This document shows, piece after piece, positions 10,346 to 33,400 of a stretch of DNA of 64,000 nt. Numbering within the stretch: the first letter of the stretch is position 1; every line of letters starts with the position of its first letter. Below the pieces are notes generated by a model, which made no database searches, was not told the origin of the DNA, and saw only the letters and a list, made by a program, of their open reading frames with translations. This DNA is from Blepharisma japonicum. Its lineage: Eukaryota; Ciliophora; Heterotrichea; Heterotrichida; Blepharismidae. A program made the translations under genes and the position numbers. Location of the stretch: contig CATKHK010000057.1 in the NCBI GenBank assembly GCA_949751835.1, positions 1 to 64,000 on the forward strand, written 5' to 3'.

Positions 10346-13300
10346 ATGCTTTTCAAATTGGTGGCTATACTTAATCTAGCGTGATGTCTTAATCTTCTCA
10401 TAGTCGATAACAAAGAAGCTAAGACGAATTTTGACTCACTTGAAGACTTATACACAAATATTTATATTGAGCATAAAACCTTCGAAGAACTCATAAAAAT
10501 AGAAGATGAAATTGATAGAGATACTATCCTTATTGATTTATCCTCAAATATCCAGTCTCATTTTTGACTATCTCAGCTAGCCTCAAGACAAAAAATTCTT
10601 CATATCATCAATGATGATTTTAATGATGGATATAGTGCCTGGACCTTTTTGCTAAAACCTAATCCGTATAGATATATAATATCCTTAGTAAATGTTCTAA
10701 AAAATTTTAACTGAAGCTCTGGAATTGTTTTTCTCTCTCATAAAAATTCATGACTGGAAGAAAAAATTAACGAAATATTTGATAATGATTTTCATTATAT
10801 TATTGTTGAAAGCCAAACTGATATTTCTCAAGTAATAGACAGAGAAGTTTTTAGACTTGGCAGTTACTTATATTATTTATTTACAGAAAGTAATATATCT
10901 GAGGATATTATCCAAAACCTCATAAAGACAAATTTATTATTGAAAGACAGTGGTATACTATTAAGCCAGGAAAGCAGCTATAAAACTAATTTTAACGGTG
11001 CTTTAATTCTAACTTCAAAAGGCCAAGAAAATTTAAAATCATATGATGAACAAATTGTCCAAAGCTTAAAAAATCTAATTTATGAAATTTTTGCAGCGCT
11101 AAATTTTAGCAATACAGGAAATGACATTAATTTTATTATGAAAGATATTCTTATGTCTATCTGTGATAGCCATTTCTGCGAAAATTCTTTTAATTTAGTC
11201 AATATTCAGTCTGGAAATCGGGTTATTATTGGAGATTCTTTGTCTTTTCCTATAAGCAACCCAATAATTTTTCCAGGTAATTCTCCAGAAATCCCTGAAT
11301 CTCGAAAAAAAATCATAAAAATTAGCATAAGTAATGGATCTATTAACCCAACAACCCCTCCCATGCCTTATACCCATACAAATTACTATGGTTGCTATAC
11401 GGCCATAAACCAAGTAAATACTGGCCAGGATTTAATACAAAATTTCATGCTTTCTCCTACAACTTTTGATTGTGGAGTTTCTGAATATAATGCTACTTTT
11501 ATGTACAATTGTTTTTCTAAAAATTTCGATGATATTGGTATCATGCATTTCCCCTCAAGCTTTCCTCCAGTGGTATTAGGGACAATGGTGACGTTTTCTC
11601 ATTTAAATCATAGCATCCCACTAATTGCAGGTATGTCTTTTGATGACGAAATGATGTTATCGCAGAAATATCCATTTTTCTCTAGGACAAGTTTTGATTA
11701 CGTATATGTAGCTGCACAGTTTGTAAAGCTACTCTATACATTGGGCTGGTTAAATTGTGCCGTCCTATATCAGGTTGAACCTTTGTGCTCAGCCATGTAC
11801 CAGCAGTTTGTAGAAACAGCTGAAAAATATAATGTGAATATCCTCAATAGAGAAAATCTTCGTGCAATCCCAGGAGATGTCAATAGCTATGAAGCCTTGC
11901 TAAACCATACAGAGATTGTTCAAGAAGTCATAAACAGCAACGCTCGGCTGTTAATAATGATTATGCTTGCTGACATTTCTATTGTAACTATGGACTTATT
12001 TTACGATTTAGGCATAAGAAATGGGGATTTAATAGTATTATGAGCAATGCCAGCTTGAATTAATACTGTATATGTCCCGAGGCCAGGTGGATTAGACCTG
12101 GCTAAGACCTATGAAGTTTCGCTTCCCTCAATTGCATTAGGCCAGCCTGGCTATATAGGAGAGGTTGGAAACTGGGTCGAAAACCAAATAGCTAGCACAT
12201 ATGGAGGAGACCCCTCTCAAAGTAACTTAGGCTCATGCTGAAATTATGATGCAGTAAGGCTTGGAAGTTATGCATTAGATTTCATGATTGACAGAGGTCT
12301 TGATTACACAAATGGGACACTATTAATGGAAGCTGCCAGAAAACAAATTTTCACAGGTTGTTCTGGGACAGTCAGAATTGAGCCTGACACAAATAATAGG
12401 TTTATTGATTTTCTGATACTGAAAAATGCGGTGTGAAATCCTGCTACTAATTCTGTACAAGTTTCTAATGTGGCGTATTGAAATCCTACTGGGAATGATG
12501 TTTTAACAATCCTTCAGCCATTAATTTATGCTGGAAATACAACGATAAAGCCTAGCGATTTTAGAATTGTGCTAAATAACTGTCCATTTCCAGACAAAAA
12601 AATTAGGACTTTTGATAAAGGAAGGTATTTAGTATTTGGAATCTGCATAACAGTCGCTGTAGCTACTGCTGGGATTACTATCGTTATATGAGAAAAATGA
12701 TGGAATATAAGAGCTGAGGATTTAAAAGAAAGGCAAGAAATTTCAGTTCCAGACGCCATTATGGCTGCGACCATTTTAATTGAATTTTTCCAATTATTGG
12801 CTATGGGTCCAGATATTACTCCTATAAATTCATTGATTTCTGATATAGGAAAATCGTTTTCATTGGATTTCGAAAGCTTGATACAGGTGAGAAATGATGT
12901 TTTTTGGATTTTTATTGATGGAGTTTTTGGGTCGATTATATTGTGAGTCATTTTATCTGTGATTGTTTTGTTTAGATTGGACGAAATTTTTAATAGAGTA
13001 GCGATTATTCGACACCTCAGCTCTCTTTCTGATTACTTAATGCCTGTACTTGGGAATTTATTGTTTATCCCCTTTATGTCAGGCTTATTGGATGTCTTTG
13101 TATGTGATAAATCAATTGGAGACGATTTCACTCAAAGTTTTATGTCTAAAGATTGTAACCAATTTTGTTGGGTAAATAATCATATAATATATGCAACCTT
13201 TGCGTTCATTGGGATTATTTTATATGAGCCTCTAGCAATATTCTGTCGACCTCTCTGGCAAGAACTCCAATCTTTGGCACATGTAAAATACTCTCCCAGG

Positions 13301-13729
13301 CATCTCATGTTGAAAACTATATTCCAAATAACCCTTATTGTTATGAATAAAACAGTAAAACGGGCTCAAGATATTGCTCATGGGGCGATTTTTACTTTTT
13401 TTGTGCTTATTTTTGCCATTTTTACACATGGACACAAAGCTTATAATTATCCTAGATTCAGCTGGTGGCTGACTTTAAGCTTGTTTGGGATTGTATGAGA
13501 ATCATTTTTAACTACAATTAATATAGCGATTGGGAAGAATGATTCTCTTATATGAGTTGTTATATTAATAGTTGGATGGGCTGCCATTGGAATTATAGGG
13601 CTATGGGTACAAAAGAAAAAATATCCTAGTTTGCTTTTTAGAAGTAAAGGAAAAGATACTACAAATTTATTCAAATTTGCATTTACATTTAGCAGAGGGA
13701 AAAACAAAGTAATTTCATTTAAAGAATAG
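10346..13729 (+). CDS. Binding-protein-like (ANF-receptor type) multi-pass receptor, paralogue A
   Basis: With TGA as Trp a single frame of 1127 residues runs from ATG 10346 to TAG 13727-13729. Residues 1-20 are a signal peptide (MLFKLVAILNLAW). The ectodomain to about residue 755 looks like two type I periplasmic-binding folds in tandem: each contains the helix preceding a strand with pattern ...LLYTLGWLNCAVLYQ, and the second has FYDLGIRNGDLIVL. A conserved IIFPGN motif marks the junction, and the Cys pair FDCGV...YNCF is shared with the paralogues. The C-terminal ~350 residues hold about eight hydrophobic segments, starting at GRYLVFGICITVAVATAG. Such ectodomains bind small ligands in class C GPCRs, guanylate-cyclase and glutamate receptors; the membrane part is not clearly a 7tm_3 domain. 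Probably a chemosensory surface receptor; ligand unknown. Confidence 0.85.
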
Positions 13730-14654
13730 TTATTAGAAAATTATTAAAGATAAATTAGCTTTATTTAAGCCTTATTTTAAATAATTATGATGAAGCCCTC
13801 TTGGTTTGGTTACTTGAGTTAACCCATGACATTTTTATGTCTCCCTAGGAATTTCTCTTATAATTTCTGAGCAAGTATAAGCCCGACTTTATCATAAAGG
13901 AATTTAAAGTCCCATCTTTGGCTGTAAACATAAAGATAAGCAAAACATTTAAAGCTGATTTTTGCTCTTATAATTATTTTCATAATCTTAATTTGAAAAA
14001 CATTTTTAGGGTAGCACCTTCAAAAGCTCTGAACATCTCTAGTAGTTCTTCAAAACACTCAGTGTAATGGGGTAATAGTTGTTTCATAGTCAATTCTTGA
14101 TCTCAGCAATAAGTTACTATAAAAATTGGCTTTTTATTTCAAAAGACTTAAAAAGGTTATTCAAAATGGTTTTTGTTGGCGAATTTTTCATTTAACTTAC
14201 TAATTTAAGCATTTTCTTAGTCCTCATCGCTGAAAAGGCAATTTATACCTTAATTATGAATTCTTCGTCTGATTCTTTTGCAGCTTTAAATTCATACCCT
14301 CTATTTCAAATATAAGGCTTCGCTTATGGAGCAGTTAATAAACTTGAAATTGTAGTGAAAGGAAGTTTACTTAAGGCAAAATTAAAAAATATCAAACTAT
14401 TAATTTCTGAACCTCAGCATGTAGAAGTGTCTTTATTCTCTTCTCTACCAGAAGCAAATTCAAATTTTGTGAGTCTTTCTCTTTTGCTTCTTTAAACTAC
14501 ATAATCTTGATATTAAGAAATATAAGAGATTTTCTAGTACCCTTTTAGAATGGGATTTATTAATATCTTACCTACATTTTTTCTGTATAATTTAGGTTCA
14601 AGCAACTAAATTAAGTTAAATTGAGTGCCATAAAAGGTATTCTATAAGTTCCAC
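13730..14654. other. Intergenic region, no convincing gene
   Basis: A minus-strand frame of 92 codons (13858-14133, TGA as Trp) has no start and no known relative. A plus-strand frame from an ATG near 14257 is broken by TAA. Both are most likely chance or old relics. No RNA gene is recognised. Confidence 0.4.
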
Positions 14655-15005
14655 TTTTATTTTCACTATAGGCAATTGATATGAGCCTTTAAGAAGTCCA
14701 TGAATAAGCATCCTCTAAAGCTATAAAGTTTAGCGATTTTCTTCATTATGAAATTGGAATATTTGAATCCAAAAATGGCCAGCCGTTTTGATACACATTC
14801 ATTGCAAGCTTTTAATTTTTAAATTATTAGCCATTTTTATTTTCATATAGGTAATTTCATATGAGCCTCCAAGAACTTCATATATAAGTATTCTCAGGGT
14901 CTAAAGATTTTAGGTAGCCAAGCTCATTACTTCATTATAAAATTGGAATATTTAAATCAGAAAATTAATAGGCCGTTTTGATGAACAGTTTTTTAATTTT
15001 TAAAA
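14655..15005. repeat. Diverged tandem repeat, two ~175 bp units
   Basis: 14655-14826 and 14835-15005 align at an offset of 180: both read TTTTATTTTCA..ATAGG..AATT, then CATATGAGCCT (or GATATGAGCCT), then ATTGGAATATTT and GCCGTTTTGAT. The units are diverged and non-coding. They lie just upstream of a Kelch-like gene. Confidence 0.8.
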
Positions 15006-15119
15006 TATTCATTACAAAGAAAATGCGATAAATAAAACAAATATAAATATTTGCTTCATTATATTGATAAAAAGCACAAGATATTGCTTATTTTTTATAG
15101 CAGAGGAAATTCCGAGAAG

Positions 15120-15305
15120 ATGCCACAGAAAAGTTGCTTAGACAAAATTACCCTGCTAGACGTAAGAAAAATTTCCGACAAAAATTACCCGAGTAAATGT
15201 CCGAAGATAAAATTATTTACATTTAAAAAAATACCTGATCTTATGTCGTATTATGAAAAATCCACTACCTCGGAAAAAAATTCTGTAAATTGTTCCTATG
15301 CATAG
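15120..15305 (+). other. Short open frame upstream of a Kelch-like gene
   Basis: ATG 15120 opens 61 codons (MPQKSCLDKITLLDVRKISD), ending at TAG. It could be the 5' remnant of the Kelch-like gene that follows, but the frames differ and no 15- or 16-nt intron joins them. No family is recognised. Confidence 0.25.
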
Positions 15306-15316
15306 TGGGCAATTAA

Positions 15317-16444
15317 ATGCTAATATCAATTGATTTGGTATTAATGAAAGATATAAGTCAAAAAATAAAAAGAATTGATATTACCAAAATTTATAACATG
15401 GAGCCTAAAGATTTAAATCAGTTGAGGTTGCTTGATTTTCAACTAAATACAACTAAAGACGCCCTAAATCATGAATTAAGTGACAATATTGCCGAGCCCA
15501 ATCAAAATTCTAATAAACAATTATTAAGCCCTGAGCAGCTATGAGCAAAAAGATCTGTCATTTTAAGTAGGCCCAATGATCATAATACAGAGGGAGATTT
15601 TCGGACTGCTTGCTTATCTAATAAAAGGAATTCTACTTCGAGCCCACAATTGAATGAAGCTTACCAAGGCTACGTCAAAGCTTATCACACAATTACATCT
15701 CTTTATCTGACTAAAAATGGTATTAATGGCATAACAAATTTGATTATCTATGATACTGAAAATGAAGAAAAACAAGTAAAAGTGTTGGAAACCCCAGAAA
15801 CACTGGACTATGGAACATGCATTGCCCAGCTTCCAAATGGTGAGCTGTTCTGTTTTAGTAATTGAGATTCATCTGGGATTACCTTAATAATTGATAATGA
15901 TTATAAAGTTCGAGAGCTGCCATCTGGGCCGCCTTGTAGCGAATCATCAGCTATTTATTTCAACAGAAATGTTTATTGCTTTGGAGGAAATTTGAACCAT
16001 GAAGAATTAACTTTTTCTTGAAGATTTGATTTGGATAAAAATCGGTGAATGAAGTTAACTCCAATGCCAAAAGCAGATCAGTATTGTCATAGCATAATAT
16101 TTAACGGCAATATCTTGATTTCTGGGTATGAAAATAAAAATCTTTTACGTTATTCAATTGATATTGACTCATTCTCTATAATTCCTTATAAATTCAAAAG
16201 AATAACAAAAAAGATCCTGATAAATGCAGAGAGTTTATATGTGATTGGGTGCAGTTACGAGTGAACCATCTATGAAAGTAAAACTAAGGATGAGTATGAC
16301 TGAGAACTAGTAAAAAAGTGAGTTTTAAGTCTTTGGCCATCTCAGGTGTACTGCACATACAATAAAGGAGCAATCTATATGATAACAAGCGAAGAAATAT
16401 GTTGCAACTTTCATTTAAGTAAAAAGAAAATATCCATTTTTTAA
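15317..16444 (+). CDS. Kelch-like repeat protein, apparently lacking the zinc module
   Basis: A frame of 375 residues runs from ATG 15317 to TAA 16442-16444 with several TGA-encoded Trp. An in-frame TAA directly precedes the ATG, fixing the upstream limit. Residues 1-130 are polar and helical. From about 135 the Kelch-like part begins: LIIYDTENEEKQVKVLETPE, CIAQLPNGELFCFSNW, VYCFGG, FDLDKNRWMKLTPMPKAD, NILISGYENKNLLRYSID. These blades carry the hydrophobic-FGG-x(n)-Trp rhythm of Kelch propellers. The intact paralogue at 55157 has an extra ~190 residues including a B-box-like finger, so this copy may be 5'-truncated. Probably a protein-interaction module; function unknown. Confidence 0.75.
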
Positions 16445-16798
16445 TTAATAGATTTAAGTTTATCAATTTAAAATAATCTTAAATCTTAATTAATCTAAAA
16501 ATTTTGCAGTCATATGCATAGGCATCCTTAATCCTCCTTCATAAATTTTAATATTTTGGATAATTAAATTAATAACTCAAACAGGCAGGCCATAAAATGA
16601 TAAAAAAATAACTAAAAGGAATATATCATTAATAATTTGCAATCCAAAGATTAATAATCAATGAAGCAAAACTTCACAAGCTCGCATCCTGCACACTCAA
16701 TTAAACGTTAAAAAGTTAATTTATCCTCAAGGAGTTTCCAAAAGATCCACGATCTTAAAAAGAATATTGTTGAAGAAGTAAAGGAAGACTTTATAAAA

Positions 16799-17600
16799 AT
16801 GCACTCATTGTGCAAGGGTTCTACCTTCCATCTCCCACTCAGACAATATTATCAAGATGATAGCTGCTACCATCAAAGCAAACTCCTTCATCTTATTGAT
16901 AAAGATGATTATGACAGAACTAAATGGATTATTTATGACACTGAAAGTGGAGAAGCACAAGTAGAAGCAAAAGAAACTATGCAATTATCAGACTAAGGCT
17001 CATGCATAACCAAACTTCCAAATGAAGAATTGTTCTCTTTTGGAAGATATGATCCTCTATCAGGTCTTACTCTTATTATTGATAGGAATTATGAAGCCAG
17101 AGTGCTACCATCTGGGACATCATGTTGACACTCTTCAGTTATCTATCAAAGATGGTATCTTTTGCTTTGAAAGATGAAATAGTTATTGTGCCTTGAGAAT
17201 ATTGAAGAATTTGATTTTTATCTAAATAGATGGCTTAAACTGGCTTCACTACCATGAAATGATTACTGTTGCCATAGTATAATATCAAATGGAAATATTT
17301 TGATATCGGGATTTATAATTAAAAATATTTTGATATAGTCAGCTGATATAGATTCATTTTCGAAAATCGAATATGACTTTTCAGCGATGAAAAGAAAGAT
17401 TTGATAATTGCAAAGAGGTTGAGTTTGATTGAATGTGGGGAGGATTAATATATGAAAGCGGAGTTGGAGATGAGCATGCTTGACAAAAAATAGCCCACTC
17501 AGAAATTTGAGGTGATGACTCATATCAACTTTCTTGTCCATATAATAAGGAAGGAGTTTTATTTGGGGTAGCTATGCTCTTAATAAAGTTTGAATATAAT
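16799..17600 (+). pseudogene. Kelch-like pseudogene directly downstream of an intact copy
   Basis: Recognisable blocks in order are KWIIYDTESGEAQVEAKETM, CITKLPNEELFSFGRYDP, LTLIIDRNYEARVLPSGTSC, then frameshifted versions of the FGG, RWLKLASLP and NILISGF blocks. A TAA follows MQLSD and several frame changes occur afterwards, so it cannot encode a full protein. It lies in tandem with the gene at 15317-16444. Confidence 0.8.
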
Positions 17601-18291
17601 ACAGCTATCTTATTTTTCTGCTAAATAATACAAATCCATATAATAATTTCCAAATACAGCACAGTATACATAAGAAAAAATGCTTCTCCGCTTTCATATT
17701 ATAGCATCTACATTAATTTCCCTATATAACAATGATTTACATCCATTTTATTTTTTAAAGTATATAAGAAATTCAATCTGCCTGCAAAATATTTATTATA
17801 TAAAGCAATCAGATTTTGCGTATCTATTTAGCACTAATAAGATTTCATGCCGATTTAATTAAAAGATTAATAAAAGTTGCTATTAGTAGCATTTTACTTC
17901 TTATTCTAATATTAATTTAGCCACAATGAAATATTTAAGCAAAAAAATAAGCATTTTGAGCTGAAGCATCAATTATTCAAAAATTAATTATATTTTATCA
18001 AATTAGATATGGAAATCTAAAAGGTCGAAATGAACTTAAATTCTCTGAATATGCCTCAATAATGCACAATATAATCCTTCATAAAGCTTAATCAATATTT
18101 TACAAGCCAATTATTAAATCTTCAAAATCTAGTAGCTAGTACTGCAAGCAAATAAAAGCTATTGAATTTATGTTAAGCAAATAAAATCATGATACAAATT
18201 TCTATTCTGAGGTGATAACTATGAAAAACCTTAAAAAACTTGCAATATTGGCACTTTTTTAATAACTCCTTAACACTATATAAGATTAATA
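17601..18291. other. AT-rich intergenic region
   Basis: No supported gene. A 45-codon open stretch near 17957-18090 (FWAEASIIQKLIIFYQIRYG) looks protein-like but has no start and ends at TAA; it may be a relic. The right end should carry the promoter of the receptor at 18292. Confidence 0.4.
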
Positions 18292-21200
18292 ATGGCTTTG
18301 CTCTTGTTCTTGATCATTCACCTACATTTTCTGTTTGGGATGTCAAACGCATACAATATCGATATACTAGTATCAAAATCAACAAACCCTGACTTGGTAG
18401 CATATCTATGGAGTTCAATTAATAAAAAGTTTCAAAGTAATTTTACAATAAGTCTTTCAAATGCTGAAAACTGCAATTTTCAATCTGACTGCATACATCT
18501 GCCAAGTATTGCTATTGATGCAACTTTCAGTACTTTTTACTCATTTCAACTTAAGCAATCTTCTGAGACTCAGCATTTCCTTTATATAAGCTTGAGGGAG
18601 CCAACAAACAGCTATGGAAAATATGAATTTTTTAGTCATATTTCTTTTGATTTGCGTTACCAAGCTTTAAGGCAGCTAATAAATTACTTCAATTGAGAAA
18701 CCTTTATTATTGTATCAAATAGTGCTGCTGATCAAATTCCACTCCTATTTAAAAGTGAAGGTAAAGGTATAACTATTCTCTCTGCAGATAATGAAACACA
18801 AGACAGTTATGATTTATTGATAGGAAGGGAAGTGAAATCTCTGGGAATTGGAAATATAATTATTCTCAATAATGGGAGGAGTTCATCAATGCTAGTGAAA
18901 AGTTTAGAAGCAAAAATGATGATGCGAGATGGATATGGAATTATCTTGGGACCCAATAGTGTGTGAGGTCAGTTCAGCAGTGATGGATTAGTGATTTACA
19001 CAGAAGAAGGTCTTGAAAGTGCAGATAACTACAACCAATATGAATATTTGGCTATCGAAAAGCTATTATGAATGATTTTGCAAGTCCAAGATTATACAAC
19101 TGAAGAAATTAGGGTTCTTCTTGAAGAAAATACGCAAAATCACCATCCTTTGCCAGCATTTTCTATCATTAATATTCAGAATGGAGAAAAGACCAAAGTT
19201 GGAGAAATTAATAATGGCATAATTTCCATATCAAGTCCTTTGATTTTTCCTGGAAATTCATCTGCCATTCCGAACTTGCCAAAAGTAAGTATAGCTATTT
19301 CTATTGCTGATGGTGTAACAGATCCAGGCAGTCCTGATTTCACCTATCTTGCTTTAATAAGGCAGGGAAATTACTTTGCACTTAGAGTTGCCTATCAGTC
19401 TAACCTCTTACTAAATTTTAATATGAAAATACAGTCCACAGACTGTGGAGCTACTGTATATGATCCTACCTATTCACGAGAATGTTTTGTAAAGCTCAAA
19501 GACAAAATGGGAGTCGTTTATTTATCACCTTTAACTGACAGTATCTGCTATGGAGATATAATGGATTTGCGGGCACTTGGCATTAATATTCCATTAGTCT
19601 CTGATGGATGCGCTATGTCAATGTTTTCAAGCAAATCCACATTTCCTGAATTTATGACAGTTCTTAAAGAGATAGCCTATACAGCAGGCATCCTTCCAGA
19701 AATCGCAAATATTTTTGGCTGAAAAAATGTTGTGGTGATACAAAGACCAGACTGAGCACAAAATGCATATAATGTCGTGATAAATCAATGCTCAAGCTTG
19801 CATATAAATATAGTCAATAACCAGTCTTATTATTTTAGCAACACTTATACGATTGATCAAATCGATATCTATAGAGATTTATTTACAGATATCATTAACA
19901 CGAAATGCCGAATAGTGATTGCTTTAGTCGATCCTTATTCATTTGGTAGTTTACTTATTACACTTTATGACTTAGGTATGAGAAAAGGTGATTTATTCTT
20001 TTTACAGCCATATCGAATCTCAGTTACAGATATTGCTGTAGGGTTTCCAGGATATGAAGATAAACTAGTCGAATTACTTCAGAGGTCTTTAACTGTGCAT
20101 ACAGCTGAATGGATTGGGAACTATGGGAAAGCTATGAAGACTCAAGTGGAACAAGCTGTTCATTGGTCAAACTTTCTTGGTTTTTCTTTTGATCAGACAA
20201 TGCTTGCTCTGCATGGCCTTGACTACAGCGTTATTAAAGGGGATAATCTTGAAAATTTCACAGCTGTGAATGAAAATATTCGAAAGCAGAAGTTTGTAGG
20301 AGTTACTGGGACTGTTTCAATAGAGCCAAGCAGCAACAGCAGAAGTAATTTTTATCTGAATATTTTCAGTGTTCTACCTGTTGCAAATATTTCTGGCAGC
20401 GGAGATGAAATTGTTGGGAATTACAGTATTACAGGCATCCAGAGATTTCTTTTTAGTAAAATTATCATGCCAGATGGCACAACCAAAATTCCGAGCGATA
20501 TGAGAATAAATCCGATAGACTGTCCCTTTGATTACAGACTGGTGCAAGACTCTTCTAAAGGCAAATTGATATTCCTCGCTATTGTGACTTTTTTCATAAT
20601 CTTCGAAATCTCCCTTGTTATTTTTCAGCTGAAAAGATGAAAATTGGGGAAAATAGAGGACCTAAGAGAACCAAAATTAATGAAATTTGGAGACTTGTTA
20701 ATGATGATAATCCTTTGAATAGAAACTCTTGAACTAATCTCAATTGGCCCAGACATGAGAGCTTATAGTAGAATAATTTTCAGACCAATTGCTTTAGTTT
20801 CTTCAGATTGGAGTGGGCCATTAGATATCACTGGAGATCACTTTTGAATTGAAATTTATATAGCAATCTCACTAGTAAGTTTTATGATTTGCTCAGCATT
20901 CATAATACAGAAAAGACTAAACAAAAAGTATTCTCATCACTTATTCGAGCTAGCTGAATATGCATCAGAGATAGGGGTTATTCTGCTTTGCAGTATTGCA
21001 TACATCCCGTTATCATCTATTCTTTTATCGGTATTTTTATGCAAAGAAAGCACAGGAAATTCAATTACTAACAGTTTTGTGTGTAACGATTGCTATACAT
21101 ATTGCTGATCCGGGTTTCATTTAAGCATTTCTATGCTATGTTTAGCTATTTTGCTAATGTACTTAAGTTTAGTAATTTATTTTCAGCCTTCAAGGCAGCT

Positions 21201-21810
21201 TTTTCATCCTATATTCAACGTTATCATAAATCCGAAAAGTGCAGTATATAAGTCTGCCTGATATTTTATCATGATTGGAATCAATAAAAATATTCATTTG
21301 ATTAGCGAAGCTCTGGAAGGGCTGGTTTACTCTTTTTTATTGCTTGCCCTTGCTTTTATATATTGGAAAATAAAGATTTACAATTATCCACGCATGAATA
21401 TGTGGGCGATTTTCTCAGCTTTCGCTGTGATTTGAAGCAATGTGGTTTTTAGTGTGCATTCTGTTGTGGACAAAGGAAATAATATATTTTGGGAGCTAGG
21501 TCTAGCAGCAGGATGGGTTATTTTGATAATTACTGGCATGATATTGCAAAATATTAAGTTTCCAAGCCTACTGATGACTGACAAAGGCATTGAACTAGGG
21601 GTTTTGTTTAAATTCAGCATGGGAGGTAAAGTCTGTGCTGTAGAAATAAATGAATTAAAGAAGCAGCCCAAATTTCACCGCCACAAGCAGAAGCACAACT
21701 CATTTTCTGAAGACCAGCATTTAATCAATTCCAAAATATCTTCAGAAAGAGCCGAAATAAGTGCTCAAAATAATTTTATTCCTCCAAAGTGTTGGGTAGA
21801 CCCTAATTAG
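18292..21810 (+). CDS. Binding-protein-like (ANF-receptor type) multi-pass receptor, paralogue B
   Basis: A single frame with TGA as Trp gives 1172 residues, ATG 18292 to TAG 21808-21810. The signal peptide is MALLLFLIIHLHFLFGMSNA. The ectodomain has the same two-lobed plan as paralogue A: ALRQLINYFNWETFIIVSNS in the first fold, the LIFPGN motif, the STDCG...RECF Cys pair, and LITLYDLGMRKGDLFFL in the second. The first membrane segment is GKLIFLAIVTFFIIFEISLV near residue 757; about seven more follow, with IYNYPRMNMW matching YNYPRFSW of A. It is the most diverged of the three paralogues. The C-terminal tail of ~70 residues (basic, His/Ser-rich) is longer than in A. Expected at the cell surface as a ligand receptor; ligand and effector unknown. 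Confidence 0.85.
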
Positions 21811-22049
21811 AATATTTGTTAATTATAATAACTAAATATATCAGCTCATAACTACCTGACCTCTTAAATAATATTTTAAAATTACTTATGCAGAATAGTT
21901 CAGCTATTTATAAAAAATCAGAATATTTTCGAAGAATTTCTTTGTCTTTCTATATCTTTTACAAAGGATAAAATGTTAAATGAGTTATTTAGATATATCA
22001 TTTTCTAAAAACTGGTGAAGAAAATAATCTTCAACAAATAGGCGAATAA
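21811..22049. other. Intergenic spacer
   Basis: 239 bp, AT-rich, between two genes on the plus strand. Presumably holds the phospholipase promoter; no motif was recognised. Confidence 0.5.
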
Positions 22050-23039
22050 ATGTTATTCTTTTGGTCCATTATATATCTGCTGGGAATAGCCTATGCGGAT
22101 CCCAGCTGCTATGCGGTCTCTTTGGAAGCTGGAGGGACTCATGGCGCATTTGAAGCTGGAAGCCTTTGGCAGCTTGCTAATACACCAACAGTTAATTCTG
22201 CTTATAATGTTGTTATAGGAATTTCAACTGGATCCTTGAATGCTGGAGGTGTTGCTCAATTCGCCCAAGGCAATGAAAAAGCGATGGGAGATTTTGTAGT
22301 CAATACTTGGCTGACTCTAAATGGATCACAAAGTACTTTTGTGGAGTGGCCAGGTGGGCTTCTTGAGGGTATCCTCTTTCAGAGAGGATTGCTTGATAAC
22401 AAACCTCTGGCAAATACTCTCCATAAAAGATACACTTATGGGATTAACAGAAATATCACTATTGGCTCCACAGACTTAGACACTGGTCTTTTCGCACAGT
22501 TCAACGAAAGTTTGGGCTCACAAGGAGTTTTGACTGCCATAACCTGCTCAGCATGTCCTGCATTCTTTTTCCCTCCCACTAACTATTTGGGTGCAACATG
22601 GATCGATGGAGGCACTGTTATTCTTCTCGATTCTTATGCAGCAGTTGATAGATGTCTTGACGTCGTCGCAGAGCAGTCTCAAGTAACCGTTGACATCATT
22701 TTTACTGGGCCTTATTATGCCCTTCCAGCCGAAACCAAAATGACAACGATAGATGTCTATAAGCGTATTGCAGAGATCGCTTACTATGATGCAAAGATGA
22801 AGAACTATTACAGCGCGATGACAGCATGGCCTGATGTTAATTTTCGGTATGCTATTTTCCCTAGTGTCCAGATGCCAGGAGGATTTATTGAGCCTCTTAA
22901 TTTTAATCAAACAATTCTTGAATGGGAGGTTCAGCTTGGCAAAAATGATACAGCGAATATTATTCAAAAAGGCGTCAGTGGGAGGACTGTTTTGACTCAA
23001 ATGTATGAGGAAAACAAGAAAAATATAATTTATCCTTAA
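22050..23039 (+). CDS. Secreted patatin-like phospholipase
   Basis: 329 residues, ATG 22050 to TAA 23037-23039, no intron and no in-frame TGA (all seven Trp are TGG). A signal peptide (MLFFWSIIYLLGIAYA) precedes the patatin fold. The oxyanion-hole loop is present as EAGGTHGAFEAG (residues 26-37), the nucleophile elbow as GISTGS (Ser near residue 60), and the second catalytic residue as the Asp in WIDGG (near 189). Patatins hydrolyse acyl ester bonds of phospholipids with a Ser-Asp dyad. The signal peptide without other membrane segments suggests export or a lysosome-like compartment. It lies between two receptor paralogues; no functional link is shown. Family assignment is firm, substrate unknown. 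Confidence 0.92.
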   Translation: MLFFWSIIYLLGIAYADPSCYAVSLEAGGTHGAFEAGSLWQLANTPTVNSAYNVVIGISTGSLNAGGVAQFAQGNEKAMGDFVVNTWLTLNGSQSTFVEWPGGLLEGILFQRGLLDNKPLANTLHKRYTYGINRNITIGSTDLDTGLFAQFNESLGSQGVLTAITCSACPAFFFPPTNYLGATWIDGGTVILLDSYAAVDRCLDVVAEQSQVTVDIIFTGPYYALPAETKMTTIDVYKRIAEIAYYDAKMKNYYSAMTAWPDVNFRYAIFPSVQMPGGFIEPLNFNQTILEWEVQLGKNDTANIIQKGVSGRTVLTQMYEENKKNIIYP

Positions 23040-23238
23040 AAATAAATTATAAGCAAATTGAGATAACTTTATATAATTCATAAACAAAATAACTTTAACA
23101 AAAGTAAGAAATTTAGTATTTGCCCCGGATTCATTAGAAAACTTACTTTTTCTGCGCTTTAAACTCAAGAAAGCTTTAAGTATCCTTGATTTAAAATAGA
23201 AATTTCTATTTTATGAAATTAAAAAATGCCGATAAAAA
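23040..23238. other. Intergenic spacer
   Basis: 199 bp, AT-rich, between genes on the plus strand. No feature recognised. Confidence 0.4.
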
Positions 23239-26200
23239 ATGATAAAAAACTATCAAAACTTTGCAGGTATAGGATTTATTAAGACATGATGATATATTTT
23301 AGCTGTACTAAATTTGAGCTCATCTATTAGCATTCTTGTAGTTCACAATAATTGAACAGCACCTAGCAATATTTGAGCTGAAGAATTAGTAAAAAAATTT
23401 GAATCCCTTATTGAGTGACATCAATGCAATTATTCAGCCATTTCAGAGTGTATAAATATGAATCCAAACATCCTAATTGTTCTTGATTTATCAGATAATT
23501 TTGAAGTGCAACTGAGTCTATCTCAACTGTGCAAAGTTAACCAGAAAACCCACTTAGTTGCTCAGAAAGCGTATGATTCTTATTACTATGACGAATGAAC
23601 TTATAGCATTATCCCTTCAAAATCAACTCAGATGGATGCGTATTTTGCAACTCTGAGTTACTTCAATTGAACTCATGGACTTGTAATTACTGATGAAGAT
23701 AATATATATAGCAAGAAAGAGTTTTTAGATTATTCAGATACTTTTGATTATTTAACTATAGAGTCATCAGCAAACATTGATAAGCTAGGAAATCGAATTA
23801 TCAAGCCTCTAGGCACCACAATGTATTATATTTTCACAAGCTCTACAATTTCATTAATAATTCAAGATATGCTGATATCTAAAAAACTCTTATTAAAAGG
23901 AGACGGGATAATTTTAAATCAAAACAGCGGTTATGGATGTACAATTACTGAAGCATTTATTGTTACGGCTACAGGACAAGAATTTGCAAGTACTCAAGAG
24001 GATTCTTTTTTGAGTTCTACTGAAAATTTAATACAATATTTATTAAATAGCACAATGGAGCTAACAACAATCGAAGGACTCAAATATTTGCTGAAGGAAT
24101 ATAACAAGAAAAATCAATTTTCAATAGTAAATATTAAAGACAGTAAACGAGAAATCGTTGGATCAATTTCTGTAGGTATAGTAGCCATCTCAGATAAATT
24201 AATTTTTCCAGGAAATACAAATGTTGTACCAAAATCTGGCAAAAAAATTTTGCACATGACAGTGTCTGGAGGTTCCACAAATCCTGGTACTCCTCCATAT
24301 ATATCTATATCACATTTCTATTATGGCTCATATGTTGCTTGGAACTTAATTAATCAGGGCACGTTCGGGATCTTAAAAAATTTTCAAATAGCCTACTTTA
24401 TTTTTGATTGTGGTGTGGCAAATTACGATGAAAATTTTGCAACAGCATGCTTTACCAAAGACATAGACAAATTTGGATTAGTTCACATATCAGCAGCTTC
24501 TTCTGCCATGGCTATTGGAGAAATAAAGCTCTTTAAGAAGCTGAATTTAGCTATTCCAGCCATTGGAGCAACTCAACTTAGTTATTGGTTGAATTCAACA
24601 GCAGTTTATCCTTTGTTCACTCGGGTAGTTGTTTCAAACTACTATCAGTTTGCTTTGTCCTCCCTCTTGCTTAAAGCTTTAGGCTGGAAAAAACTCTGTG
24701 TTCTATATGGGAATGACACACTCGGGAGTTCAGGGTACTCAGCATTTATGGAAAATGCTGAAAAATATGGGCTAGAAATTCTGAATCCAGAAGATACAAG
24801 GATGCTGCCAGAAAACTTAAATAGAACTACAATAAAAAATTATATTAGTAAGCTGCAACGAATTATTGATACACAGGGAAGACTTCTAGTTTTATTATTG
24901 CAATTACCTTTATTCTATTTTGCTCTTGAAGCATTCTATGACATGGGTTTTAGGAAAGGAGATATCGTTATTTTGGCTTTATCCTCGGACCACGTTTCCC
25001 TTACACAATACGATTTTTTGTATACTTATAAAGTAAAGGAAGCAGGAATTCCAATGATTGCTATTTCAGGACAAAAATGAGTTGGCGAGACTGGAAAAAT
25101 GGTTTACTCACAGATAAAAACTCAGTATAACACTGTCCCATATTCATCTGCTTGCTATTTTCATGATGCCGCATATACCATTGGTGTCGCTTTAGATTAT
25201 ATGATAAATCAAGGGCTTGATTACTATGATCCTTACCAAACAAATTTGGCGATGAGAACTCAGAAATTTACCGGATGCACTGGAACAGTTTCAATTGATA
25301 AAAATAGTAATGACAGGATTATGGAGACTTTCGATATTAATGTTAACAAAATAGACAATATTTCTGGAAATATAACCTCCTATAAAATGGGAGAATTTCA
25401 TCCTGATAGTGCCACAATGTTGACTATTGAGAATCCGATTATTTATGGAGATGGGACTACTATAAAGCCAGATGACCTGAGAAATCAAAACAGTAAATGT
25501 CCTTTTTCTGATAAACTTGTGAGAACGTTTACGAAAGGAAGAATACTTATCTTTGGCGTCTGTTTTGGGTTTGCTTTTGTATCTATGGCTATAACTGCAT
25601 ATATATGGAAAAGGTGATGAAATATATCATTAGAAGAGCTAAAAGAAAAGCAAGAAATTTCTATGCAAGATTATATTGTTGAATTAACCGTGCTTATCGA
25701 ATTTTTCCATTCGCAGCTATGGGCCCAGATATAACTCCAATAAGTAATTTCTTAGCAAAAATCAGTAGTACTTTTTCTCTTAGCTTAGAAAATTTTTTGA
25801 AGCTCAAAAACGGAGCATTTTGAATTGTGGTTGATGGAGTCTATGCAGCTATTATATTATGACTAATTTTGTGCTCAGTTATTCTGCTAAGACTAGATGA
25901 AAGATTCTCCAGGGTATCTATTTTCAGGTTTTTAGCTTGGCTCTCAGATTATTTAATGCCTATTTTAGGTAATTTGTGTTTTATTCCTTTCATTTCAATG
26001 TGCTTGAATGTATTTGTATGTGACCAATCTATTGGAGAAGATTTTACCGATAGCTTCCTTGCTCAAGATTGCTATTATTTTTGTTGAAAAAACGAGCATT
26101 TGATATATGCAATTTTCTCTTCCATTGCTCTTACGTGCTATGAGCCACTTGCAGTTTTTTGTAGGCCTTTGTGGCAAGAATTGCAGAATTCATTGCATAT

Positions 26201-26699
26201 ACACACAGCTCCTCTATTTTTGATGGTAAAAACTGTTGTCCAAGTAATTTTTATAGTCATGAATAAAACAATCAAAAGAGCTGAAAGCACAGTTCATGGA
26301 GCTCTATTTGCAATCCTAATGGCAACTTATATCGGTTTCATATTCAGATTCAAACCCTACAACTATCCAAGACTTTGCTGGTGACAAGCCCTAAGCCTGA
26401 TTGGTGTACTTTGGCTTTCAGTGCTTTCAATAATCTCAGCAAATGCTGAAGAAAGCAATTTAATTTATTTTCTAGTTCTGTGCATAGGGTGGGCAATAAT
26501 CGCTATCATCGGGATTTATGTACAAAGAAAAAAGTACCCCAGCCTGCTGTATAGAAGAAAAGGTTTGGATACAAGTCATTTGTTCGCATTTGCGTTTGCC
26601 TTCGGCGATAAATCAAAAAGAGCCCTTGCAAAAATAGTCCCAAATCGATTGTCTGAAGATCCAGTGTTTAATCTTTCATCTATGAAACAGATTTATTAA
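23239..26699 (+). CDS. Binding-protein-like multi-pass receptor, paralogue C, with one frame break
   Basis: From ATG 23239 the frame (TGA as Trp) runs through two binding-protein-like folds (first FATLSYFNWTHGLVITDEDN; second LLLKALGWKKLCVLYGNDT and FYDMGFRKGDIVILAL), the LIFPGN junction, the FDCGV...TACF Cys pair and the first membrane segment GRILIFGVCFGFAFVSMA. At 25711-25715, opposite FFQLLAMGPDI of paralogue A, one base is missing and the frame shifts; the rest continues to TAA 26697-26699 with the same membrane segments and KPYNYPRLCWW. No 15- or 16-nt intron explains the shift. The remainder is intact for about 1150 residues, so this is either a very recent pseudogene or a one-base assembly error. 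The start is uncertain: the first Met gives a longer than usual leader (MIKNYQNFAGIGFIKTWWYI). Confidence 0.75.
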
Positions 26700-26761
26700 T
26701 ATGAATTTTTAAGGCTTCTTAATTTAACAATTTTAATTAATAGTTAAAGGATTAATTTACA

Positions 26762-26813
26762 AAAGTCACTTTACTGAGTCATGTCCACTCTTTCTGCTTT
26801 CATTTTCTTTAGC
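26762..26813 (-). pseudogene. Tail-end relic of a Kelch-like gene at a duplication junction
   Basis: The minus strand reads KENESRKSGHDSVK and a stop, resembling the end of the Kelch-like gene at 27837 (KKKKMKEGRVDFDSL, stop); the DNA shares the CTTTCATTTTCTTT stretch and surrounding bases. It abuts the left end of the partial receptor copy. Short match, so moderate support. Confidence 0.45.
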
Positions 26814-27750
26814 AAAAATAAGTAGTAGTCTTTCCCTAAACCTAGAAAATATTTTGAACCTCAAAACAGAGGATTTTGAATTGTGGTTGATGGAGTCTAT
26901 GGGGCTATTATATTATGAATAATTTTGTGCACAGTTATCCTGCTAAGACTAGATGGAAATTTCCCGGGATATCCATTCTAAGGTTTTTAGCTTGACTCTC
27001 GGATTATTTAATGCCTATTTCAGGTGATTTGTACTTTATTACTTTCATTTTAATGCGCTTGAATACATTTGTGTGCAACCAATCTATTGGAGAAGATTTT
27101 ACCGATAGCTTCCTTGCTCAAGATTGCTATTATTTTTGTTGAAAAAAGCATTTGATATATACGATTTTTTCTTTCATAGCTCTTATGTGCTATGAGCCAC
27201 TTGCTATTTTTTGCGGGGCTTTATGGCAAGAATTGCAAAATTCATTCCATATAAATACAGCTCCACTATTTTTGATGGTAAAAACTGTTGTCCAAATAAT
27301 TTTTATAGTTATGAATAAAACGATCAAAAGAGCAAAAAGCACAGTTCATGGAGCACTATTTTCAGTCTTAATGGCTGCTTATATTGGATTCATATTTAGA
27401 TTCATGCCTTACAATTATCCAAGACTTTGCTAGCGACAAGATCTACGTCTAATTTGCGTACTGTGGCTTTCTTTGCTTTTAACAATCTCAGCAAATGTTG
27501 GAGGAAGTATGCTAATTTATTTTCTTTATGTGTGCATAGGATGAGCAATATTGTTATCATCGGAATTTATGTGCAAGGAAAAAAGTATCCTAGCCTTCTA
27601 TATAGAAGAAAAGGTTTGGTTACAACTAATTCATTCACATTTGCGTTTGCTTTTGGCAAAAAATCAAAAAAAGCCCTTGCAAAAATAGTTCTAAATCGGA
27701 TGCCAAAAGATTCTTCATCTAACCTTTCATCCATTAAGCAATTTGCGTAA
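26814..27750 (+). pseudogene. Partial receptor copy (C-terminal membrane part only)
   Basis: This stretch repeats 25757-26699 of paralogue C at high identity, from the segment after the second membrane helix to the C-terminus (TTNSFTFAFAFGKKSKKALA). It has several frame changes, and TAG replaces the TGG of CWW. No ectodomain or signal peptide is present. It is a truncated tandem duplicate of a host gene. Confidence 0.88.
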
Positions 27751-27836: not shown

Positions 27837-28952
27837 TTAAAGTGAGTCAAAATCAACTCTTCCTTCTTTCATTTTCTTTTTCTTTAAGTCAAATTTAAAG
27901 CAAGAAATTTTATCAATGCCAAATAAAACTCCGTAAAGGCAACTATCACACTGCTTTGCATGAGTAAAGCCATATTCTTCATTTAGCTTAATGTCTCCAA
28001 TTTTATTCCAGCTATATTCATTTCCGATTTCGCTTTCCATTATATTGCCTTCCAGTTCTATTACGTAAACCCTCATATTAAAAGTAGCCAGCAGTTTAAG
28101 CCTGCATTCATTAACGCTGACGGCAGGAATCTCTGAGTAGCTTTCAATTTTTCTATCAAACTTATAAAGTTTTTTAAAAAAAAAGCCACAGATCAAGATA
28201 TTTTCTTGAAAAACAAGGCAAGAGCATCCAAAAGAAGCGACTGGGATAGGAGTCAGCCTAATCCATCGGTTAGCGGATAAATCAAATTTATAAGCAGTGT
28301 CCAGTATTTGGAGTTCAAACATCCCACCAAAAATAAAAATGCAATTTTGATAGTAAACCCCAACACATCACGATGCGTTAGGCCCATTAGGTAGCCTTCT
28401 TTTGATAGAAAGCGTTTTTAAATCAAATATATAAGCTTTTGCAGACGAAAACTCCCAGCATCCAAATGAAAATAGCTCTCAGTTAGGAAGTTGGACTAGG
28501 CAGGCTTTATCAAAAGACTCTGGAATATTTATTTCAGCCTGGCTTAGCCTAGAGTTCTTCATGTCATAAATGACCACACCAGTCTTGCTTGGCACTCCAC
28601 AAGTAGAATACATGAATTCGGACTCGAAACTTAACTGCTCTGAGAAGATCTTAAGGCTGGTTTTGGTAGAATTCCAAGCATCGATGAACTTTGAGTAAGC
28701 ATCCATGAATTCAGCACTGATTTCGTTTAAGAATTTGCGCTCTTCAGGAGCTATTTCTATGAGAGAAATCCTATCAAATTCTTTTTGGAGGCTGGTTCTT
28801 GTTAGTTCATAATTTGATAGTTCACCTGACAAATATTTTTTCTGCTGCTCTTGGAGTACTTTTTCAAGTGAAGATAGCTCCAATAATTTTTTATTTAATT
28901 CTTGGGCTAGGAATTTGCTTCTTTGTTGTGTGCTTCTCTTGATAGATTCCAT
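27837..28952 (-). CDS. Kelch-like repeat protein with coiled-coil N-terminus (copy E)
   Basis: A frame of 371 residues runs from ATG (28950-28952) to TAA (27837-27839), with TGA as Trp at 28479 and others. Residues 1-70 form a coiled coil (QRSKFLAQELNKKLLELSSL). The Kelch-like part begins near residue 130 (VVIYDMKNSRLSQAEINIPE) and shows ACLVQLPNWELFSFGCWEF, CIFIFGGM, FDLSANRWIRLTPIPVASFG and NILICGFFFKKLYKFD. There is no zinc module. It is a tandem paralogue of the gene at 29174-30277 on the same strand, with 221 bp between. Likely a cytosolic interaction protein; partner unknown. Confidence 0.82.
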
Positions 28953-29173: not shown

Positions 29174-30277
29174 TTAGCATGGCTTCTTTATTTCTATCTC
29201 TTCCAATTTTCGTTTGCTAAGATCAAATTTGTAGCATCAAGAATCTTTCATATCATATAAAATATTATATACAGCACCATTACACTGCTTTGCGTACCCA
29301 TAACGGCAATCATTTACAGTGCAAGCAAACATCCCAATCTTATATCATTGAAAATCATCTTCTCAGCCACTTTCAACAATTTTCCCACCAACCTCAAATA
29401 AATAAGCTCTCGAATTCCCCACACTTAGAAGCTTCAGCATACACTCTCTTACATGAACTTCTGATATTTCTGAATAGCTCTCAATATCTAAATCAAGTCT
29501 ATAAATCTTATTGTGAAAAAAGCCACAAACCAAAAGCTTTCCGTTAAAAGGCACAGAAGAGCATCCAAAAGATGATTTTGGTAGCTGGGGCAGTTTGGTT
29601 CAGTGGTTTTTGATGAGATCGAACCTAGTTACAAATTCTGATCCTGGGGTTCTATAAGAACTGGAAAATACATAAACAGAGTTTTTATAGTAGACTCCTC
29701 CTGCTCATAAGGCTGGAGTACCTGAAGGAAGTATTCTTTTAAGAGTAAGTGTACTGAGGTCAACTATAGAGCAAGCACTAGAAGTTAAATCTCAGGTTCC
29801 ATAGCAGAAGAGCTCAGAATTTGGAAGCTGGATTGTATAGAGGCTGTGGCGTGATTCTGGAGAGGCTTGCTTTAACTGGTAGGTGTCTATATCATAGTAG
29901 AATAGGCATGACTTATTATCGACTCGAAAATTCACATAAAGATACCTTGAAGATAAGTCTAAATGCTCATTTAAGCAATTCAATTTTTGATAAATCCTGT
30001 CTCGGCTACTCATGTAAGTGTTGTAAGCTATGGTAATTTTTTCATTTGATTCATATAAAAGCTGCAGCTCTTCAGGATTTTCATTTAGCAAAGTTCCCTC
30101 AAGCTTGGCTTCAATTAATTTTGTTGATAAATTAAATATTTTGACTTCCCCAAGAAAGTAATCTTTAGATGTAATATCAAGCATCTCCTCTAGCAATGAA
30201 AGTTCTTTTATCTTTTCAATAAGTTTTTCATTCAGCGCATTTCCAGCATCCTCTATTCTCCTTTTGATGGTTTCCAT
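29174..30277 (-). CDS. Kelch-like repeat protein with coiled-coil N-terminus (copy F)
   Basis: A frame of 367 residues runs from ATG (30275-30277) to TAA (29174-29176), needing several TGA-encoded Trp, for example in FCYGTW and KNHWTKLPQLP. Residues 1-60 are helical (LNEKLIEKIKELSLLEEMLD). The Kelch-like part starts near 135 (CLFYYDIDTYQLKQASPESR) and continues with YTIQLPNSELFCYGTW, SVYVFSSSY (here the usual FGG is replaced by FSS), FDLIKNHW and LLVCGFFHNKIYRLDLDIES. It is closely related to copy E and was produced by tandem duplication. Function unknown. Confidence 0.82.
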
Positions 30278-30489: not shown

Positions 30490-33400
30490 ATGCTAGCTTG
30501 GCTAGTCCTTTTGATTAAAATCTCTGATGTTTTCTGCATTTGTGAATTTGAATGCAAAACTTTAAACCTTGAATTATGTTTAAAATGCATTGAAACAGAA
30601 ATCCTAGTGAAAAAAGAATATTCTTCCAAAATTTGTAATTTATGGTCTCAAAAAGAATGCTCCGTATCTAAAGAATTTATTATTTCAACCCGGAAAGACT
30701 ATATTTGAATCAATTCATTTTATCATGATCAAATTATTATTAGCTTGACAAATGAGTCGCTACAATCCAGTATTTCAGCTAAGTTTACAGACAAAAGAAA
30801 TTCAACTCTAGAGAAAATATGTCAAATCGAATACCCAAATTTTCAGCATTTTGGGTTTAAATTTAAAGGTGGAATGCGTTCAAATCCAATATATATTTGA
30901 ATAATTGGCTCCTTTAAAGAGGATTTTCAAGGTTTTGTATCAGCCCAAATTATAAATGAACCAAAATCTACTTCATTAGCAGAAATTCAATGCTTACCAA
31001 TACCAGAACTAAAAAGCATTGAATGCTCTCAGTCTACTGCAAAATGCCCCCCTTGGCTTTGGCCAGAAAGCTTGCCCTGAGAAGCTAAAAGAAGATTGCT
31101 TCTAAATTGCGGTGATGCAACTTGTAATATGTGTCCTACAAGCTTTAGCAGTACTTGAGGGGACTGCTCTGATTGTGGAGCATCTTTATTTTTATATCAA
31201 GGCTTGTGTTGAAAAGCCTGCCCATCAGGAACAGTTAAAAACTCTGAATATAATACATGCGATAAGCAAGAAATTTATTCACTTGACTTAAGCCTATATG
31301 ACGTCATATCAAGCAGCCCATCAGGGATGAAACTTTCCGCAGATTATAACTGCCCTAACCCTTATCCTGTCCTCAACCGAGGCTTTTTCTTTGATATTTG
31401 TTCCCGCATGTCTTCTGATTCTTTTATCATGCCTTACTTCTTTTCAGTTTCTGGCTGGCTTTTTGTGGTCGATTACCAAAATGCCTGAAACCAAATACTG
31501 CACTGGAATTCAGACTATATCAATATAAATAACAACCATTTAGAACTATATGAAAAAGTCATTGAGCCAAATCCTTTTACCCTCAATCAATGAAACTACT
31601 TTTACATTTCTCAATCAACAGATTGGAGTTTTGTGTATCTTTCAATATCAATGAATGGTGGCTCCACAACATCAGTGACAGAGTGGATTAGTTCTACTTA
31701 TCTTAACATAAATGACAATGCAAATACTCTATATGTTGGATCTCCATTTATAAGTACAAGCAAACATGGATTTCATGGATACTTGTATAGGCTTCGAATT
31801 TATACTGATTATCAGTCAACTGGAGCTTCAAATGATTACTATATAAGTAATTGCTCAGGCGATTGCTCAGCTTGTCCATCAGAGAATATTTGTCCTAGTA
31901 CTCACTGTACTTCTACTCAATATGAATATTTTGATGGCTGCAAGTCATGTGCGGCTTGTGAAACAAGCTGTGTTAGAGAAAGTGACTGCAATTTGTGCTT
32001 AGACTATTGTGATTCGTGCAGTTCGTTTTCTTTGTGTAGTTCATGCCAAACCTACTATTTTCTTGGCCCTTCGTCTAAGAGTTGCCATTCAGGAGGATGC
32101 CCTTCAGGCTCTTATGATAATGGTAATTATCAATGCAAGTTTAGCGTAGGAATGATTGAAGGAAGGATCCCCTGCTTAAGTTTGATTCTAAACAAAATTC
32201 AAGGCAATTTCACAGACACTACTTATAAAACAAGCACCCAAGCTGGAGTCACAGCTGATTTTTATCCAAAATATGATGCATATGATCCTTACCCATCCAA
32301 GGGTCGAGGCTACTACTTTAATGGCCACTCATTGATGCAGGTCACTTCATTTATGTTTAATGTTGAATTCAGCATTTCAGCTTGAATTTATCTGCCTACT
32401 ACAAATAGTGGAATTATTTTCACAAAGCAGATTAAAGATAGCTCTTCCACAATATTAATGGCTTTTGAAATAAACAGCAGCAATAAGCTCCAACTTACTT
32501 TATATCTAACTATGAGTAAGACTGGAAAGGTGCTGAGAGCAGAATCAAAACAAATTGTGTATGATTCTCAATGGTACAATCTTGCAGCATGTGTATACTA
32601 TACAGCTCCATATTCTCAAATAACATTTTCAACTGCGGGAACAACCATGAGTATTGGGTATTATAAAGCTTCTTTATTTGGATTATTTTTAGATTATAAT
32701 AATGGCTATACTGCAACCATTGGAGCATCTAAGTCATCTAAAGGCTATGAAAATTTTATAAAGGCTTTTATATACAGCATAAAAATATGAAATTTTGAAA
32801 TGGACACTTGGTATAATGACCATTCATCAGGCAGCTGCGGGAATTACCCTCCAGCTGCTGACAGCTGTCTTTCAGCTCAGCCAATTGAGAAGTTTTATGA
32901 TGGGAATTATTGGCAAACTTGCAAGTCAAATTGTACTACAAAAGGTTGTGTGAGATCGGATACTCAATGCAACCTATGTGAGCTTGAAAATTGCTACCTC
33001 TGTGAAGATTGAACTGGGTGCAATACATATTGTGACTCAAGCTGCGCTACCTGCAATGGGACAAGCTATAAAGATTGCATAACATGTGCTAATTCTACAC
33101 GTGTTTTAGCTTATCCTGGACAATGCAGCTGTATGACAAGCCAATACTTGATTTCTGAGTCACCCTATTCATGCGGTGACTGCTATAGTGCCTGCAGTGC
33201 ATGTGTTGGGCCTAATTATAATGATTGTCTGAGTTGCAGCAGCCCAAACATTAAATCTGCTAGCTCTCCAGGATTTTGCTCATGCAATTCTACTCAATAT
33301 ATTAAGTCTAAAAGCCCTTTGGAGTGTGCTGATTGTGATTCAAGCTGCCTTACTTGCTCTGGAGGTGGCAAGTATAGCTGCCTGTCATGCCCATCTGGAT

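Follow-up and report, generated by a model that had tools for sequence, protein, structure and literature searches.

A large family of putative chemoreceptors with paired Venus flytrap domains in the ciliate Blepharisma japonicum

Between positions 10346 and 27750, the first 64,000 nucleotides of Blepharisma japonicum contig CATKHK010000057.1 (C57:1-64000, hereafter the window) contain a group of genes that each seem to join two binding domains, D1 and D2, to a polytopic membrane part. A first-pass annotation, made from the letters alone, proposed that these genes encode candidate chemosensors, which raises the question of what kind of protein they are and what such proteins might sense. We analysed the window against the whole genome (45,185,585 bases in 224 contigs), using translation table 4, in which TGA encodes tryptophan. 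The genes probably belong to a large family of cell-surface chemoreceptors in which varied inputs would act on a common transducer.

Gene 1 (10346..13729, forward strand) is intact and consists of a single open frame of 1127 amino acids, with an N-terminal hydrophobic leader (leader peptides were read from the sequence), D1, D2, a nine-segment membrane part and a basic C-terminal tail. D1 (10346..11302) appears to have a type I periplasmic-binding fold in degenerate form, similar to the amino-terminal domain of GluN1, and terminates in NPIIFPGN; its bounds are those of a family D1 profile that has gene 1 itself among its members. D2 (11279..12601), likewise delimited by the family profile, is a type I periplasmic-binding, or Venus flytrap, domain. 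The membrane part (12575..13720) contains CPF, nine hydrophobic segments, a cysteine loop, loops bearing RPLWQ and KAYNYPR, and the basic tail. Gene 2 (18292..21810, forward strand) is also an intact single frame, of 1172 amino acids, with D1 at ~18307-19275, D2 at ~19255-20538 and the membrane part at ~20518-21666. The same order of D1, D2 and membrane part is found in gene 3, described below, by means of our own family profiles, which include the window genes and whose E-values for these genes are therefore given by construction. The Pfam family ANF_receptor, which was built without the window genes, matches genes 1, 2 and 3 with E-values of 1.6e-11, 5e-16 and 5.5e-23, the best stretch always being D2. 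Since the membrane part of gene 1 in turn has 106 further matches across the genome (44-92% identity, worst E-value 8.4e-95), chance is excluded, and the proposed plan of two bilobed binding folds and a membrane part is upheld. A profile scan of six-frame open reading frames of at least 40 amino acids returned no further family member in the window at E-values up to 1.

A profile of 63 D2 domains had matches to 210 different PDB sequences (E ≤0.001), with plant GLR3.4 (6.8e-22) and GABA-B1 (1.6e-19) at the top; the best 60 of these 210 are GLR3.4, GABA-B, taste, mGlu and calcium-sensing receptors. The corresponding profile of 13 D1 domains found GluN1 at 7.6e-17, and the best 60 of its 170 matches are all NMDA-receptor chains. 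In that alignment, the profile stretch ysIiNiqn..VG....iifPGgst..p pairs with YSIMNLQN..VG....IIWPGGETERP of GluN1. Because IFPGN falls on the terminal IIWPGG of GluN1, this motif, which is real but had been taken for a hinge, is on the evidence of the alignment the end motif of an amino-terminal domain of the ionotropic-receptor type. When single D1 domains were compared with ANF_receptor, six of 13 matched at E up to 1 (best 2.2e-17) and gene 1 D1 did not; the latter fold would be degenerate, and its support comes via the family profile that includes gene 1. When the D1 and D2 profiles were compared with each other, the only stretch to align was the junction, which is present in both alignments, so the comparison gives no evidence of kinship between the two domains. 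The matches of both profiles to flytrap receptors support a bilobed type I periplasmic-binding fold for D1 and D2 alike, as the annotation had assumed, and rest on sequence, the structure models being too weak to add to them.

An alignment of 68 membrane parts contains six invariant columns, which in gene 1 numbering are P81, C179, C196, C200, W201 and K249, the last five corresponding to alignment columns 177, 194, 198, 199 and 247. Of the cysteines on the predicted outside, that in column 3 is present in all 62 rows that have a residue there, and those in columns 177, 194 and 198 in 68 of 68. The hydropathy of the 68 aligned members yields nine segments, so that the membrane part is polytopic as first proposed but with nine rather than about eight segments. 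In a nine-span model with the N-terminus outside and the C-terminus inside, the ectodomain and the cysteine loop lie outside and the basic tail inside. Lysine and arginine then make up 0.174 of residues inside and 0.096 outside, and sequons number 97 outside (59.3 expected) and 42 inside (40.3 expected). This topology is favoured by the sequences, not proven. The column 247 lysine (gene 1 13313-13315), which is predicted to sit within a membrane helix, is present in all 68 members, with a glutamine four residues further on in 63. The YNYPR motif noted earlier does occur in the window genes, but as the local form of a loop motif, [YF]NYx[RK], that is found in 59 of 68 members; a second loop motif, RP..Q, and a tail motif, LF[KRA]F, are each present in 44.

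The membrane-part profile had no match among PDB sequences at E up to 10, and no Pfam family touched more than 3 of the 68 membrane parts; the best E-value, 7.1e-4 for S_4TM in two members, was taken as chance. The claim that the membrane part is unlike described receptors thus holds for the libraries searched, PDB and Pfam. Nor did its sequence match an unrelated channel or transporter, although here the structure models contributed no usable fold. Two AlphaFold2 predictions, made from window sequences only (4 and 5 rows), reached mean pLDDT values of 38.6 and 38.3. A Foldseek search with the full-length model placed class C flytrap domains first (E = 8.7e-8), with TM-scores of at most 0.26 among the 50 matches listed; this modelled result is in line with what the sequences show and carries little further weight. 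Among contigs of viruses and prokaryotes, short patterns drawn from one protein, which detect close relatives only, gave 1 and 10 matches, respectively, and no relative was confirmed among them. The membrane part may resemble fungal TRP-like (Flc) proteins.

The family extends far beyond the window. Six genome searches with membrane parts, each of which scored the best ~100 candidates, give as their union 212 distinct places on 59 contigs, which is a lower bound; with one more that was read directly, the family has at least 213 places. As we read the matches, some nine of these 212 places are short or contain TAA or TAG. From the other end of the protein, a genome search with ANF_receptor returned 106 rows, of which 101 places were kept, and 96 of these have a membrane part beside them (95 within 2.5 kb on the same strand and one read directly; the other five were unexamined). 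Among 68 loci, 59 encode D2 and the membrane part in a single frame, and 55 of these 59 have a D1 signal directly upstream. Most places (171 of 212) are clustered, with neighbours within 12 kb, the largest clusters having 21, 20 and 16 members, and 122 of 132 adjacent pairs lie on the same strand. At ~3.5 kb per gene, we estimate that the family occupies about 1.6% of the 45 Mb genome.

The genes of the window are neighbours and not tandem duplicates of each other, contrary to what had been proposed. The membrane parts of genes 2 and 3 are 25% and 54% identical to that of gene 1, and a tree of the 68 membrane parts puts the three genes in three different clades: gene 1 groups with two genes of contig C89 (93 and 90% identical), gene 2 with one gene of C8 (69%), and gene 3 with genes of C34 and C145 (79%). 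Because of these placements the cluster is, as far as the sequences tell, an assembly of three lineages. Purifying selection acts on close pairs in the family and is in most cases weaker on D2: median dN/dS is 0.175 for the membrane part and 0.214 for D2, with the D2 value higher in 49 of 57 close pairs, which are not independent of each other. Of 1711 pairs from 59 loci other than the window genes, 1407 show lower similarity in D2 than in the membrane part. Receptor families commonly show this pattern of a constrained membrane part and a faster-changing exterior. Copy number, clustering and this faster outward divergence fit environmental sensing, as the term candidate chemosensors implied. 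The size of the family and its clustered, diverged copies point to food, prey, kin or mates as what it would sense, and away from a single housekeeping ligand.

What the flytraps might bind was approached through two pocket stretches of D2, which contain amino-acid contacts in class C receptors. The pocket motif SYGAT is kept in two of 63 D2 domains read, at loci L001 and L002, both of which also have IGPxx[ST]xEA, and a near form occurs in L003 and L006; neither form is present in these stretches of the window genes. The four loci lie on four different contigs as a core group with near full-length ANF_receptor matches in D2. Because D2 retains these matches together with most of the pocket motif, the core members are the best candidates for ligand tests. 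Flytraps of this fold class often bind amino-acid-like ligands. This makes gamone 2, the tryptophan-derived mating signal, worth considering, and PMC10892320 describes it as an amino-acid derivative common to Blepharisma species. With at least 213 places, sensing of gamone 2 cannot be the purpose of the whole family. That some subset serves as its receptor is very improbable, and the window genes, for their part, lack the pocket motif.

If the proteins are chemoreceptors, a small extracellular molecule would close D2, amino-acid-like in core members and varied or unknown in the expanded ones. D1 might serve as a dimerisation or allosteric domain, like the amino-terminal domain of GluN1. The short, cysteine-bearing linker (CPF...) and the cysteine loop could then relay the closure of D2 to the membrane bundle, and the presumably cytoplasmic RP..Q and [YF]NYx[RK] loops, together with the LF[KRA]F tail, would engage a common partner, so that many inputs might lead to one output. 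Several observations weigh against this chemoreceptor reading. The pocket motif is gone from most D2 domains read, those of the window included, which may mean that amino acids are not the ligands of many members. Sequons are fewer in D1 than expected (35 against 54.1), and a single outside loop of NKT type holds 49 of the 97 outside sequons of the membrane part, yet is the most basic outside loop (0.210 lysine plus arginine). Outside loops 1-18 and 80-113 have sequons below expectation, and inside loops 38-60, 133-153 and 286-300 above it. In nine of 68 loci D2 and the membrane part do not share a frame (one, L072, was fetched short), no gene-wide positive selection was seen among the 57 close pairs, and the structure models are so poor that no claim about the membrane fold rests on them.

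Three other functions have to be weighed. The membrane part could itself be a pore that opens when the flytraps close, after the manner of ionotropic glutamate receptors, with membrane potential or calcium as the output driving ciliary reversal. The nearest solved relatives are indeed ionotropic, GluN1 for D1 and the plant channel GLR3.4 as the top match of D2, and an invariant lysine and a near-invariant glutamine lie inside predicted membrane segments. We nevertheless regard a ligand-gated channel as rather unlikely: in genes 1-3, Pfam at E up to 1 detects neither a second-type ligand-binding domain nor any channel family, and the membrane profile has no counterpart among PDB sequences (E up to 10). 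Our first guess is a metabotropic output of the GPCR kind, with a slight preference over its main rival, an intrinsic channel.

Nutrient uptake, in which flytraps would catch solutes and pass them to a permease-like membrane part, draws on the fold, which is that of bacterial solute-binding proteins, and on a polytopic membrane part with an intramembrane lysine. It is decidedly improbable, given that beyond scattered weak matches the Pfam families listed include no transporter, that PDB is equally silent, that the ectodomain relatives listed (the best 60 for each profile) are receptors, and that more than 200 diverged copies would be unusual for uptake. Surface recognition or adhesion, by flytraps that bind proteins rather than small ligands in mating-pair contact, self recognition or prey contact, would accommodate the many D2 domains read without a pocket motif and the faster divergence of D2 in most pairs. 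The membrane part, however, has conserved loops and a conserved tail, which speak for signalling, and the pocket motif is kept in core members, so that adhesion too seems improbable.

Among known systems, class C GPCRs (GABA-B, mGlu, CaSR and taste T1R) similarly have an ANF_receptor flytrap outside, ahead of a polytopic membrane part, but they have one flytrap where the Blepharisma proteins have two, and here there are about nine membrane segments. The class C membrane domain 7tm_3 (PF00003) was not detected in genes 1-3 (E up to 1), and is not among the best 25 of 33 Pfam families touching the 68 membrane parts (E up to 10, with filters that drop most matches above 0.1). As to seven helices, hydropathy gives nine segments in the 68 rows and the structure model (pLDDT 38.6) is unusable. 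Because the 7tm_3 domain was not found, the family is, judged by its sequences, not filed as class C GPCR, and its coupling to G proteins is putative. Ionotropic glutamate receptors such as NMDA GluN1 and plant GLRs share the type I amino-terminal domain, the D1 end motif IxxPG(G/N) and, in GLR3.4, the best PDB match of D2; unlike them, the present proteins have a second type I flytrap in place of the second-type ligand-binding domain. No such domain with its pore loop, nor any channel module, was detected in genes 1-3, where ANF_receptor alone exceeds its curated Pfam cut-off. The trypanosome receptor-type adenylate cyclases offer a further parallel, being a protist family that, according to PMC6027212, has two flytraps in most ectodomains and is proposed to sense the environment. 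Compared by description, not sequence, those proteins differ in having one span and a catalytic cyclase rather than about nine spans, and Pfam finds no catalytic family in genes 1-3.

Earlier surveys bear on why such proteins could have been overlooked. A GPCR survey of 24 ciliates (PMC9960496) reports that family C is absent and that families A, B, E and F are present, with the largest sets in heterotrichs. Like the present proteins, those in the survey are surface-sensing candidates, but they were chosen by 7TM families, for which reason the survey would likely miss proteins like these, and Blepharisma is not named in its main text. In a GPCR study from 2025 (PMC12716839), 7TM_3 was used too when ciliates were searched for glutamate-family receptors. 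A term search of the main text of the Blepharisma somatic genome paper (PMC9942806) found the word receptor 0 times, and it was likewise not found in portions of the sister paper (PMC9942856). Our searches of an open-licence library turned up no description of the present family.

Gene 3 and the copy behind it qualify the earlier count of three full paralogues and one partial copy: genes 1 and 2 are intact, and gene 3 (23239..26699, forward strand) is one base short near 25712 relative to gene 1 and changes frame. Its D1 (~23281-24234) and D2 (~24214-25515) are followed by a membrane part at 25495-25710 that continues at 25635-26633 in the next frame, divided between the open frames 23236-25734 and 25515-26699; in the alignment with gene 1 the missing base falls in the second membrane segment. 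No frame-restoring GT..AG span starts within 25641-25735. Nineteen such spans (20-119 nt) start upstream, at 25519-25614, and by our reading each would excise coding sequence alignable to gene 1 or cause it to be misread. As no acceptable intron restores the frame, gene 3 is a pseudogene or contains a sequencing error. The partial copy (26804..27747, forward strand) is present in decayed form; it duplicates the 3' half of gene 3 and comprises the membrane part only. It is 84.7% identical in DNA over 948 bp, has in-frame stops, and shows membrane-profile matches in four short frames. Short introns were also considered at nine frame breaks whose family membership was unchecked individually: GT..AG candidates of 17-35 nt exist at some, none convincing, and none of 15-16 nt was found.

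Other genes surround the family members in the window. A patatin-like phospholipase gene (22050-23039, forward; Pfam 1.5e-12) with a hydrophobic N-terminus lies between genes 2 and 3, and four kelch-repeat-like genes are found around the receptor genes at 15317-16444 (forward), 27837-28952 (reverse), 29174-30277 (reverse; match below the curated cut-off only) and 55157-56878 (forward). Upstream, two genes that lie next to each other consist mostly of tetratricopeptide repeats (1169-3580, reverse, with 21 TPR_1 stretches; 4055-5854, reverse, with 15). Genes resembling FAM135/DUF676 serine esterases occur at 36002-38095 (forward) and 58555-60621 (reverse), and two long open frames, 30490-35271 (forward, 1593 amino acids) and 38154-42362 (reverse, 1402 amino acids), are without a Pfam match (E up to 0.001).

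Chemical sensing by single-celled ciliates is poorly known, and the survey in PMC9960496 concluded that family C receptors are lacking. It is possible, though on balance doubtful, that the family represents a new eukaryotic receptor class, in which twin Venus flytraps are joined to a nine-span transducer unrelated to GPCRs or known channels, and which with more than 200 genes forms a main chemosensory repertoire of the cell, one comparable in size to animal chemoreceptor families. If the proteins are chemoreceptors as proposed, a single cell carries about 200 of them, and their binding domains, shared with glutamate, GABA and taste receptors, are joined to a membrane transducer that matches none of the libraries searched. 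The family would then provide concrete genes for work on chemotaxis and mating signals, and a new example of how a flytrap can be wired to a membrane.

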